The notes beneath the pieces were generated by a model that searched no databases, was not told the DNA's origin, and saw nothing but the letters and a program-made list of their open reading frames with translations. A program made the translations under genes and the position numbers. DNA of 64,000 nt. Source: Granulicella sp. L56. GTDB lineage: Bacteria > Acidobacteriota > Terriglobia > Terriglobales > Acidobacteriaceae. Position 1 is the first letter of the stretch. Every line of letters starts with the position of its first letter. Of this stretch, positions 16,753 through 50,083 are shown piece by piece. The stretch spans positions 2,066,438-2,130,437 of the forward strand of contig NZ_LMUS01000006.1 of assembly GCF_009765835.1 (NCBI RefSeq), in the 5' to 3' direction.

Positions 16753-17777
16753 TTATTTCTTGAGCAGCTTCGTGAGATAGTCGAGCGCGCGCGGATCGGT
16801 GGACTGCCCCAGCCAGAAGACGGCCTGCTTGCGAACGGCAGCGTCTTTGCTGGTGTTGGCAATCTGTATAAGCTGCGTAGCCGCTTCGTCCCCCGGCAAG
16901 CGCGAGAGTGAGAAGACTGCGGATTTACGAAGTTGTGCATCGGGATCGTTTTCGCTGATCTCGCGAAGATCGCCCGCGACAACTTTGCCGCCCTTCATCG
17001 CCATCCAGAACTGAGCCTGCTTGCGGACCTGCGGAGAGGAATCTTCGTGCGCCATGCGAATCAGTTCTGCAACCGCACCGGGGTCTTTGGTGACGGTGAG
17101 GTCGAAGGTAAGCTTCTCGCGAAAGGCTGCGTCGGAGTCCTCGCGGGCAAAGTGCTGCAACGCAGCGAAGCCCTCGTGGCTATGCTGGCTGGCAAGCCAG
17201 AACGCGGCTTTCTCGCGGAGATCGAGATCGTTCCCAGCAGCCGCGAGGCTGATAAGCGTGGGCCAGTCGCTGGAGATTGATGGATGGAGATGGCGAAGAC
17301 GGCAACGTCGCGAAGCTTCCTGCTGTCATTCTGAAGGGCGAGTGATTTCAGGTTAGCGATGCTCTCATCGGGTGTGACGTTGGTGAGCCACACAACGCGG
17401 AGATCGCCTGCATCGATCTGGCGGCCGGGATTGTCCACATGGATCTTCTCGATGCCGTGATTGACGATGCGAAAGAGGATGACGGCATGGTCGTAGGAAT
17501 GATTGCCAGAGTCGCCTTCATCATCTTTCACGTTTGGATGATCGCCTTCAAGGTAGCTGATGCGCGGATACTGTCCAGAGAAGGATTTTTCGACTACGGG
17601 AACGCTATAGCCGACCCACAGCGGTGCAGCTTCGTCTTTGAGTGAATTGAGCTCGGCGTTCAGACCGTGGGCAGCAGTCGTGGTGAGACGCGCATGGAGG
17701 AATTGCGGCTGCTGCGCAAAGGCTGTGACAGCAGAGAAGACAGCGATAGTGGCGAGCGTGCGAGCGAGAGGACGCAT
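16753..17777 (-). pseudogene. Exported HEAT-repeat protein, frame interrupted
   Basis: Two reading frames together make one HEAT-repeat protein of about 340 residues. The first (start 17777, AGGAG upstream) has a signal peptide, MRPLARTLATIAVFSAVTAF, and runs through SRKLRDVAVFAISIHQS. From about 17265-17290 the same pattern continues in another frame (SDWPTLISLAAAGND, then DLREKAAFWLASQHSHEGFA) to KALDYLTKLLKK-like repeats ending at 16753. One base appears to be missing relative to an intact gene; no slippery heptamer is visible at the junction. It could be a real frameshift or a sequencing error. Repeats such as VRKQAQFWMAMKGGKVV recur every 30 or so residues. It is the last gene of the sigma/anti-sigma cluster. 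Confidence 0.8.
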
Positions 17778-47170: not shown

Positions 47171-47188
47171 AAAGATTTTTGAAGAAAT

Positions 47189-47219
47189 GAATACTTTAGA
47201 CTGTGGCACTTTAGTATTC
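47189..47219. promoter_or_regulatory. Candidate C-box operator
   Basis: Inverted repeat GAATACT (47189-47195) / AGTATTC (47213-47219) around GACTGTGG, with a direct repeat ACTTTAG at 47193 and 47208. This tandem-symmetry design with a central GTGG-like spacer resembles C-boxes bound by controller proteins of restriction-modification systems. It ends 5 bp before the TTG start of the controller gene. Confidence 0.6.
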
Positions 47220-47224
47220 AAGAC

Positions 47225-47473
47225 TTGAAGATTTTAGTTGTGAAAACTCACAATATATCTTTAGGCTCCGTCATTGCTTCGCTGCGGAACAAATCACATA
47301 TCTCACAAGAAGAACTGGCAGCGCGAGCTGGGGTTCACCGCACTTACATCAGCCAGCTTGAACGCGACCTAAAATCGCCCACAGTCGATACACTCAAGAA
47401 CATCGCGCTTGCTTTAGGTATAAAAACCAGCCGCTTGATTCGACTCACCGAGGGAAACCCCGATGAGTTATAG
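47225..47473 (+). CDS. Controller (C) protein of a restriction-modification system, XRE-type
   Basis: An 82-residue helix-turn-helix regulator. LGSVIASLRNKSHISQEELA with ARAGVHRTYISQLERDLKSP is a classic Cro/C1 domain of the size of C proteins; such proteins dimerise on C-boxes and switch their own and the nuclease gene on with delay after entry into a new host. The listed start is TTG; GTG at 47240 would also fit and could be leaderless. A candidate C-box lies immediately upstream. The gene overlaps the nuclease frame by 11 bp, so both are translated from one message. More AT-rich than gyrA and the genes after it. Confidence 0.85.
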   Translation: MKILVVKTHNISLGSVIASLRNKSHISQEELAARAGVHRTYISQLERDLKSPTVDTLKNIALALGIKTSRLIRLTEGNPDEL

Positions 47474-47969
47474 GATGAAGAAGGCATTTGCAACTGAGTG
47501 CGGATTCGCTGTGAATGCAGCAGATGTACTCCATGCTACTGAATTGACAAATAATATTTTGGCAGCTCTGCCTGCGTCGCTCTTTAGAAGTATAGATTTC
47601 AAAACCAGCAGCTCTATTATAGGCGCGGTATTTTGCGAACACTTGGCTGATAGGGTCAACGCTATCGTCAATCCGATCGAAAAAGGCCACCCCGATATTC
47701 TGCCACTCACTGCTGCCAAAGCCCCAGAAGCCGCTTTACGAAACTATCCTTGCGGATTGGAAGTTAAGAGTACTATTGGCAACATAACCAAAGGAGCAAA
47801 CCTGCGAGCGGGTGTAAAGAGAGTTGCACATATAGAAGGGATCACCTGGCAAGCCCATCATCGAGATGTGAAAGCACTCATGGGGCTAAGCTGGGACTTC
47901 ATACAGCAACACGAGGCATTCTACTATCCAGGTATCACCGGCGTTTTTTTTTACGAACAATTTGTGTGA
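47463..47969 (+). CDS. Putative type II restriction endonuclease, frame ended by a T9 tract
   Basis: A 168-residue protein following the controller gene (ATG 47463 or 47475). HPDILPLTA and YPCGLEVKSTIG supply the spaced PD and E-x-K residues of a PD-(D/E)xK nuclease core; KRVAHIEGITWQAHHRD and LMGLSWDF follow. I cannot name the specificity. At nine consecutive T (47944-47952) the frame runs into TGA at 47967. With one T fewer it would continue as LCEDDWGQISGTTGRN, then WILLWEEDEYIQMFENCF, to a TGA at 48145-48147, giving 227 residues and ending exactly beside the methylase stop at 48148. The extension reads like genuine protein, so the intact gene is probably 47463-48147 and the present copy shifted. 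Nuclease assignment rests on motifs and gene context. Confidence 0.7.
   Translation: MSYRMKKAFATECGFAVNAADVLHATELTNNILAALPASLFRSIDFKTSSSIIGAVFCEHLADRVNAIVNPIEKGHPDILPLTAAKAPEAALRNYPCGLEVKSTIGNITKGANLRAGVKRVAHIEGITWQAHHRDVKALMGLSWDFIQQHEAFYYPGITGVFFYEQFV
47944..47952 (+). other. Nine-T homopolymer, possible phase-variation tract
   Basis: Uninterrupted T9 in the coding strand near the 3' end of the putative nuclease. Loss of one T (or gain of two) joins the two frames. Such tracts mutate by slipped-strand mispairing; they are also prone to sequencing error. Confidence 0.75.
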
Positions 47970-48147
47970 AGACGATTGGGGACAGATAAGTGGCACAACA
48001 GGCCGAAATACAAAAGTGTCCGGAATGAAGGCGTCAGGAAAAACAAAGATGGGAACCGGCTGGATTCTTCTGTGGGAGGAGGATGAATATATACAAATGT
48101 TTGAGAATTGTTTTCCGGGAACTCTACACAACAATTTATTTAATTGA

Positions 48148-48834
48148 TCAATAAGAGAAATTTAATTGCGAGAGTTCTGAGCCAGAACCGTAATACACAA
48201 CCTCTTTGCTTCTCTTTCCAGCCACCCCAGGTAAATCTAGTAATCGATTGAAAGGCAAATAATCTCCGAACGCACCTTCGCAGAATATTAGCTGACCTTT
48301 CCGCTGTAAAGCCCATCCAGCGAGCGCCTCATAATTCAGATCAGAACTGCCGTGAGCATACCCCTGCCCTGGTTCAGATTTGTACGGAGGGTCAATAAAC
48401 CACGTAGCCTTTATATCCGGAGCCGCCGTGAAATCGGCCTCTATAATTTTCCAGTGTTTCACTTTATGGATCGAAGCGGCCATTACCCGTTTGCTTATTT
48501 CCCAGTTACGTTCCAAGACCGGTGTCACTTTGATGCATTTGTACTTAAATGCCATTTTTGTTGCAGCATGGACGATATGCAGAAATTCAGTACTTCTTTC
48601 GCCGACCTTTAAGTCTGGCAGCGCGAGAATCTGCTCTGGGGTAGCTGATTCAATGAGCCAGCGCCATATTTCAGCAACCTTGTGATCTCTTTCCACAAGA
48701 ATAACTTTTTTCATCCAGTGGGAAGAGTGCAGCGCATAGGCCGCCGCACCGGCAAACGGTTCGATGATCGTGTCATACTTCGGGGTTGCATAGTGGCGCG
48801 CGATTTGTTTCTTGCGACCGTAATAATAAAACAC
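48148..48834 (-). CDS. DNA N6-adenine methyltransferase (D12 class)
   Basis: A 228-residue methylase convergent to the nuclease. The AdoMet-binding motif is IIEPFAGAAAYALHSSHW and the catalytic motif is TWFIDPPYKS (DPPY), the layout of the Dam/D12 alpha group; N-terminal FYYYGRKKQIARHYATPKYD also fits. It should protect host DNA from the partner endonuclease by methylating adenine in an unknown site. The start is GTG (48832-48834). Its TGA starts at the base after the end of the extended nuclease frame, a zero-gap tail-to-tail arrangement. It has its own upstream region, so it can be expressed before the nuclease. AT-rich like the controller and nuclease genes. Confidence 0.88.
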   Translation of the reverse strand: MFYYYGRKKQIARHYATPKYDTIIEPFAGAAAYALHSSHWMKKVILVERDHKVAEIWRWLIESATPEQILALPDLKVGERSTEFLHIVHAATKMAFKYKCIKVTPVLERNWEISKRVMAASIHKVKHWKIIEADFTAAPDIKATWFIDPPYKSEPGQGYAHGSSDLNYEALAGWALQRKGQLIFCEGAFGDYLPFNRLLDLPGVAGKRSKEVVYYGSGSELSQLNFSY

Positions 48835-49037
48835 TTATCTCACAGCCTCTCTGAATACTATAGCATTCAACGCTAGTTCACGGCATCACTTCCAAAGTTC
48901 TTCTTATGGCTTCTCTGACTCCCCCAGCATCCGCTCCCTCAGAATCAGACTAGCCGACAAACAACTAGATACAAAGTGGGTCTCGACCCCGCCGGAAGGT
49001 AGACAGTCGAGCTACGAAACAGGCGGCGGCTGGGTGC

Positions 49038-49081: not shown

Positions 49082-49660
49082 CTAACTCACCGGCGACAGC
49101 AAAACATCATTCGCCACATAGGCATGCAGCGGATCACCCGCGTTGATCTCCACATTCTTGCCATGCTTGACATGGCCAAACGGGGAAGACAGCGCTCCTC
49201 TGATCCCGCCCTCATCTTCTTTGCCCTTGGTCTGGCGCAGCTTGATCTTGTTGTCGCCCGCCTTCAGGTAGTCGAGCCGGATCTCCAACTGCCCCGACTT
49301 GCCCATCATCCCCGACTTATGCGCCTTGGTCACCACGCCATACGCGCTGCTGCCTGCCTTCGCCACCACAACGTCCCCAACCTTCAAGTCCTTCACCAGC
49401 GTCAGCGCCACCGGGTCGCCCTCGAACGACGTCGACGAGCTCAGGTCCTGCGCGAACTGCAGCTCGACATCCGTCCCCTCGGCCAGCGTGTACGTGTCCT
49501 TGCGCGAAGGTTCAGTCGCAGCCTCACCCGCAGCAGCGGGAGCAGTCGCCGGACTCGCAACCGGATTCGTCGCCGGATTGGCAGCCGGAGACTCCTGACC
49601 CAACGCAACCTGACCAAGTACAACGATTAAAACCAGCGAACCAGCAAGCATCGGCCTCAT
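49082..49660 (-). CDS. Exported protein of unknown function
   Basis: A 192-residue protein with a signal peptide (LAGSLVLIVVLGQVALGQ), an Ala/Pro/Thr-rich spacer (about 25-50) and a compact C-terminal beta domain. That domain contains TYTLAEGTDVELQFAQDLSS, VGDVVVAKAGSSAYGVVTKA and LEIRLDYLKAGDNKIKLRQT. The pattern recalls small soluble domains that control surface or pilus-associated components, but I cannot name a family. A strong GGGAGG lies 5 bp before the ATG. It is monocistronic. Confidence 0.75.
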   Translation of the reverse strand: MRPMLAGSLVLIVVLGQVALGQESPAANPATNPVASPATAPAAAGEAATEPSRKDTYTLAEGTDVELQFAQDLSSSTSFEGDPVALTLVKDLKVGDVVVAKAGSSAYGVVTKAHKSGMMGKSGQLEIRLDYLKAGDNKIKLRQTKGKEDEGGIRGALSSPFGHVKHGKNVEINAGDPLHAYVANDVLLSPVS

Positions 49661-50083
49661 AGAAACCTCCCAGGGAAACTAAATCAGAAACGCCCAACCG
49701 TACCCTAACCTCAGTAGCGAGACAAGGGAATTTGCAGCCGACTTCCATCGGGTGAACAAATCTTGTCAAGCCCTAAACACCCTCATCTAACGCACCATCA
49801 ACAACATAGCGATTGCAGATGAGTTTCCCTCCATTCGCTACAATTAACTTAGGCCCCAAATACCAAGTTTCCGCATAAATTCGGGCCTTCTCCTTTGGAA
49901 TCAAGACTTTGCCGAAAGGTTGCATTGCGGGTCTAATAAAATCAATACTTTACAAGGCAAGTCCAGACCTAAGTCAAAAAAGAATGAAGACTTTGAGACT
50001 AAAGTACCCCCAGGGGGAGGGGGTACCTTGGACGCCCGCGAAAAAATCCGGACGCGGCCAACCGAACCCGCATCTAACCCCGC
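49661..50083. other. 423-bp gap with a GC-clamp palindrome
   Basis: Mixed composition, no convincing gene. GTACCCCC-AGGGGGA-GGGGGTAC (50004-50026) is a perfect 8-bp palindrome preceded by GAAGACTTTGAGACTAAA. A related G-rich string GGGGAGGGGGAGGTACC occurs at 8005-8021, and GAAGACTTTAGTACTTAAAT at 12536-12555, suggesting a further repeat type. Promoters for the two flanking genes must lie here but I could not fix them. Confidence 0.55.

Follow-up and report, generated by a model that had tools for sequence, protein, structure and literature searches.

The gene of a Type II restriction endonuclease in Granulicella sp. L56 is split by a tract of nine T residues (T9; 47944–47952, plus strand), and the gene of the partner methylase is intact. 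Positions refer to the window, i.e., the whole 64,000-nucleotide stretch of DNA that was analyzed. The reading we favor, with a rough probability of 0.6, is that the T run was made by chance and underwent a recent one-base slip, by which the nuclease was lost and the methylase kept—a modification-only state that would be leaky and revertible. The cell is most likely left with a protective methylase but with little or no cutting enzyme.

The tract is the place of a frameshift. The ORF that starts with the ATG at 47463 ends after 168 codons at a TGA (47967–47969), which begins 15 bases past the end of the tract. A second frame, displaced by one base, stays open for 195 bases, stop included (64 codons plus stop), and its end adjoins the stop of the methylase ORF on the minus strand (Table 1). 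With one T fewer, the ORF encodes 227 amino acids; recovery of the frame at T9 takes either one base fewer or two more. The initial annotation, which was made from the letters of this DNA, had described a putative restriction endonuclease cut at this tract, a stop 15 bp past it, a shifted frame of 195 bp ending beside the methylase stop, and a 227-residue frame upon removal of one T; re-reading of the ORFs bears out this description. T9 is the longest run within the 64-kb window and the only one there of more than seven bases, and, when either strand is counted, the 4.7-Mb genome contains six separate runs of T9 or longer, including one T10. Within the protein, the tract falls at about residues 161–163, inside a predicted β-strand (153–164). 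Val-Phe-Phe spelled as GTT TTT TTT has a probability of 0.087 under the codon use of the cassette itself, so that, given protein sequence and codon use, a T8 is not improbable here.

Table 1. Features of the restriction-modification cassette and its border, in positions of the window
Feature	Position	Strand	Basis
Inverted repeat GAATACTTTAG...CTTTAGTATTC, probable C-box-like operator of the C-R operon	47189..47219		Sequence; putative function
Gene of the C-type regulator (HTH_3; GTG start, 77 aa), overlapping the R start	47240..47473	+	Pfam HTH_3, E 2.2e-16
Restriction endonuclease as encoded, truncated, 168 aa	47463..47969	+	PADLOC REase_II, profile 6–201 of 267, E 1.2e-41
C-terminal part of the restriction endonuclease, detached, in the shifted frame	47953..48147	+	PADLOC REase_II, profile 201–254 of 267, E 1.7e-18 alone
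D12/Dam-like DNA methyltransferase, 228 aa, intact, convergent	48148..48834	-	PADLOC MTase_II PDLC03340, E 7.9e-107
Operator-like repeat GAATACTATAGCATTC upstream of the methylase gene	48853..48868		Sequence; putative function
Probable remnant, 3' end of a brnA antitoxin gene	48920..48946		25/27 bases identical to G033

Both pieces of the split gene match consecutive stretches of one Type II restriction-enzyme profile (PADLOC REase_II). The split is more than chance, because the shifted piece of 64 residues matches this profile on its own, at the positions that follow. The read-through protein scores 219.6 bits (E 1.1e-65), and the unbroken enzyme of the closest relative, encoded in a genome of the same family (G298), reaches 212.3 bits. 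Across 50 aligned sequences, of which the window's is one, P77, D78, E100, and K102 are invariant; all four lie before the tract, and we take them to be the P-D...(D/E)-x-K catalytic signature of Type II PD-(D/E)XK restriction endonucleases. Profile match and PD...ExK residues thus support the earlier assignment as a restriction endonuclease, and the separate match of the shifted residues supports the claim that the extension is genuinely protein-coding. The read-through enzyme matched no Pfam or NCBIfam family above its cut-off, and no sequence relative was found in the PDB. As no such model reached its cut-off and the ORF call ends early, annotation may miss an enzyme of this kind.

The truncation removes a conserved part of the protein: out of 25 invariant columns in the 50-sequence alignment, seven lie past the tract (W172, G173, G180, T183, V185, G192, and K195). 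An AlphaFold2 model of the read-through protein (pLDDT 92.5, pTM 0.91) places two strands, 185–188 and 200–204, and two helices in this region. The top solved folds for this model are restriction enzymes—NaeI first (Z 7.8, rmsd 3.9, 142 aligned), followed by 3ndh, SfiI, SwaI, DpnI, and EcoRV—with every Z below 8 and a best Foldseek E of 0.15, which is not significant. Judged by the model, the 168-residue fragment should keep the catalytic residues but not a sound fold, and proper folding and cleavage would not be expected of it.

The split gene is part of a putatively C-regulated cassette. A regulator gene lies directly upstream of R and overlaps its ATG; its start was set to the GTG at 47240, aligned with the start in the relative, whereas the ORF list gives a TTG at 47225. 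The methylase scores 21.9 bits against Pfam MethyltransfD12, just under the cut-off of 22, keeps 97/100 conserved columns, and contains FIDPPYK in its translation, i.e., the DPPY motif, presumably that of the D12 class of adenine methyltransferases. The cassette has 45.6% G+C versus 59.2% for the window and sits between gyrA and the gene at 49082–49660. This slot behind gyrA holds the restriction-modification cassette in the window (47174–48946) and a toxin–antitoxin pair in the congener G033 (L109, 1014–1805), assigned by Pfam as BrnT/BrnA. Together with the brnA-like remnant at 48920–48946, this suggests that the cassette replaced a BrnT/BrnA pair or came after its loss. In the window's own genome, no second copy of the restriction gene was found, the single match being that of the window itself.

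The closest known system is the cassette in G298, which has the same three genes C-R-M in the same order and orientation, with a small HTH gene likewise directly upstream of R and with the same operator-like repeats. The repeat upstream of the C gene recurs there with one base changed, and the first 12 bases of the repeat before the methylase gene are identical. Identities to the window amount to 66% for C, 68% for R, and 78% for M. R is unbroken in G298 (221 aa) and split in the window: aligned with the window, the G298 protein matches in two segments, one per frame, which join at the tract. Since the DNA similarity covers only the cassette (47188–48864), the G298 cassette occupies another chromosomal place. 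A more remote counterpart is found on the Escherichia coli plasmid p12579_5 (WP_001106952), where R is 55% identical and is likewise overlapped by an upstream HTH gene; this R is unbroken, and it is paired with a cytosine methylase, not with one of the D12 type.

Both genes are rare in the sampled relatives. The restriction gene occurs in 2/299 genomes sampled from the class, one of them being the genome of the window, and the methylase in 3/398 genomes of the family sample, counting the own genome and one weak match (28% identity). The scan of viral_contigs gave one relative; a phage record bears the label 'R.SnaBI'. A wider view of the tract site comes from 85 related loci, namely L009–L013 plus the best 80 of 107 relatives in genome_contigs. 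The site is covered in 84 of these 85 loci (L051 ends at a contig edge), with one copy counted per locus, and the counted copy reads across it in 84/84, always with T7 or less: the longest T run at the site measures 2, 3, 4, 5, 6, or 7 in 11, 9, 33, 11, 17, and 3 loci, respectively. In this set, with its best 80 of 107, no counted homologue ends at the present stop, which is the outcome of the homologue alignment that the initial annotation had proposed as a check. Second copies in L012, L013, L047, and L078 also cross the site with T7 or less; in L085, the second copy has decayed and carries a stop at this place. The T runs at the site in the relatives are explained by the encoded residues, which are Phe-Phe or Phe-Tyr in most of those examined (best 80 of 107 included). 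As these relatives do not exceed T7 and G298 has a T4, T9 is peculiar to the window's lineage among those seen. L026 carries a T9 run elsewhere in its restriction gene, whose frame is intact.

The same loci display a variable gene neighborhood. A D12 methylase is present in 34 of the 41 closer loci (L009, L010, and L013–L051), a cytosine-5 methylase in five (L010, L013, L024, L044, and L047), and neither class in two (L025 and L051) on the DNA covered; all 44 more distant loci (L011, L012, and L052–L093) carry a cytosine-5 methylase, both groups again drawing on the best 80 of 107 relatives. One restriction-enzyme family, thus, pairs with two unrelated methylase classes. Probable C-R fusions—a type of fusion already known (PMC3850674)—form one frame of ~310–375 codons in L014, L018, L030, L031, L035, L039, L041, L042, L045, and L049, in all of which the methylase is co-directional and not convergent; further probable C-R single frames are found in L068, L071, L072, L080, and L082. 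Two related restriction-enzyme frames lie side by side or nearby in L012, L013, L047, L078, and L088, so that a two-subunit enzyme is possible there.

Could the tract be an evolved phase-variable (contingency) switch, kept because replication slippage toggles the nuclease in subpopulations? A 9-base tract does set the frame of a nuclease that is dangerous if unbalanced, and the detached part is either still constrained or very recently lost. Repeat-switched restriction-modification genes are also known: in Helicobacter pylori and Mycoplasma agalactiae, frameshifts at homopolymers or short repeats likewise break such genes (PMC3936762, PMC9465063). In the passages considered, the broken genes mostly encode methylases or Type IIG and Type III enzymes, with a truncated HsdR of suggested switching also mentioned, whereas the window carries a stand-alone Type II nuclease of which one allele is seen. 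A selected switch would be expected to keep its tract in relatives, and T8 or more occurs at 0/84 homologous sites (best 80 of 107 included), with T4 in the closest relative, G298. Moreover, the chance of a T8 from Val-Phe-Phe given above means that no selection is needed for the run. Hence, an evolved switch is not supported and we hold it to be very unlikely. The on/off switching by slippage that the initial annotation had considered is retained in one respect: reversal is physically possible, but the tract, which is not kept at the 84 sites, lends no support to an evolved device.

A second possibility is that the T9 allele itself is selected, with transcriptional slippage limiting the nuclease to a few per cent of the methylase. 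The nuclease would then be made only via RNA polymerase slippage, T9 acting as a fixed throttle that is tunable by single-T changes. The downstream frame is intact and still similar to the relatives, and a coding-strand T9 lies above the threshold of T7 described for E. coli RNA polymerase in a reporter study (PMC6260861). In this study, deletion slippage by the polymerase was seen with T runs but not with the A runs that were examined; with T8, a reporter shifted by one base was rescued by deletion at ~10%, and no rescue was detected below T7. mRNA sequencing in the same study gave a lower value, with 0.75% insertion at a T7 run. Runs of nine A or T slip in bacteria according to another report, with extra bases in that case (PMC5009743). 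In Citrobacter rodentium, tssM is also interrupted just past a homopolymer and rescued by slippage, the full product arising from slipped transcripts; that case involves an A11 with added bases, established by experiment, whereas T9 in the window would need one base fewer or two more by deduction from the sequence (PMC4256274). Against a selected T9 allele stands that it is not conserved in the relatives (best 80 of 107 included) and that the timing of the enzyme is already set by a C protein in systems of this type. We therefore give little credence to T9 as a selected setting, and its role as a tunable throttle appears just as doubtful. A full-text literature search found no on-topic paper that joins transcriptional slippage with the restriction endonuclease of a restriction-modification system. 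A −1 shift of the ribosome on the U run was set aside, since the frame needed is +1 (or −2); with +1 needed, UAC rather than a stop as the next codon, and no stand-out RNA structure past the tract (z −0.57), ribosomal frameshifting is the less likely route.

No further stop or frame change was found in the shifted part up to 48147. Of the columns with a conservation of 90% or more among 35 close relatives, 47/48 before the tract and 18/19 after it are kept in the window. The mean identity to these relatives is 52.2% for the window versus 52.6% for the G298 enzyme before the tract, and 62.4% versus 60.0% for residues 163–206; relaxed selection past the tract was, thus, not found against these 35 outgroups. 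When compared with G298 alone, the window shows a pN of 0.25–0.27 after the tract and 0.18 before it, with synonymous sites saturated between the two (pS 0.88). These somewhat denser nonsynonymous differences could be a slight relaxation. The lost part bears no clear decay, and therefore the break is very recent, the part is still read, or the break is a sequencing error.

The last of these would mean that T9 is an error of sequencing or assembly and that the cells hold an in-frame tract and a complete, normal restriction-modification system. T9 is the longest run in the window, and the lack of clear decay fits such an error equally well. Precedents are on record: the frame break of the MjaVIP methylase is given as a sequencing error, and 109/138 genes in Brucella proved uncorrupted on resequencing (PMC3488263). 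The window also holds another single-base frame break near 17260, so that single-base errors in the assembly are possible; this break, examined base by base, is not at a homopolymer. The assembly as a whole speaks against this reading, however. Of the other five T9/A9 places, three fall within open frames that are long when measured from stop to stop (478 codons in L001, 548 in L006, and 303 in L007). In 263.6 kb of aligned coding DNA, seven candidate frame switches were found in the window's genome (G000), versus five in 264.2 kb of the congener G033; only one of the seven, which include the break near 17260, is near a run of at least five bases. With 92 runs of at least six bases well inside ORFs of at least 150 codons in the 400 kb taken, the assembly displays no excess of homopolymer frameshifts. 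We therefore regard a mere error as unlikely, if less so than a selected tract.

The break near 17260 affects a HEAT-repeat-like gene (by eye) on the minus strand, which differs by one base from a 403-codon ORF in G033. It is one of three candidates found in the window; the other two, near 49670 and 52910, are at gene-start positions and were not taken as breaks, the latter showing several gaps when aligned.

Broken nucleases are found elsewhere in this family of enzymes. Among the related loci (best 80 of 107 included), the restriction gene is broken at other places in four, by stop codons in L025 and L091 and by a frame change in L048 and L050, in the latter beside a G5 run; a full-length methylase match is kept in L048 and L050. 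Since all four come from metagenome-assembled genomes, these lesions may be errors. The opposite arrangement might be represented by L049 (3682–4300), where the match of a D12 methylase beside an intact C-R frame stops at residue 139 and its middle seems to be missing, the DPPY region included. Provided that this metagenome-assembled contig is correct, the nuclease would be kept there and the methylase damaged.

We, hence, return to the loss of the nuclease through a chance-made T run. Of the two outcomes that the initial annotation had offered, a nuclease silenced with its methylase kept is the better supported, as the enzyme is split and the methylase intact. In the course we propose, a C-regulated Type II cassette—a C-R operon plus a convergent D12-like methylase—would have been acquired into the slot behind gyrA, and a T run would have arisen by chance in the codons of the Val-Phe-Phe strand. 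Replication slippage at this run may then have changed its length by one base, putting the nuclease out of frame and leaving C and M in place; T9 would accordingly be the true length in cells. The main product would be the 168-residue fragment, which bears PD...ExK, is devoid of the last two predicted strands and helices, and is presumably inactive. As the methylase is kept, the state would be one of modification only, and as T9 is long enough for polymerase slippage, it would be leaky and revertible and no dead end: a few transcripts and rare descendants might regain the full frame. For the transcripts, we infer that the host polymerase slips like that of E. coli.

A restriction gene broken by a homopolymer slip is a further example of an already known kind of event. 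What the window adds is a clear instance in which a restriction system is just losing, or has just lost, its nuclease, and for which the unbroken sister cassette from the same family can serve as a control. If the state is leaky, a one-base slip would set a defense gene to a low level and not simply kill it.
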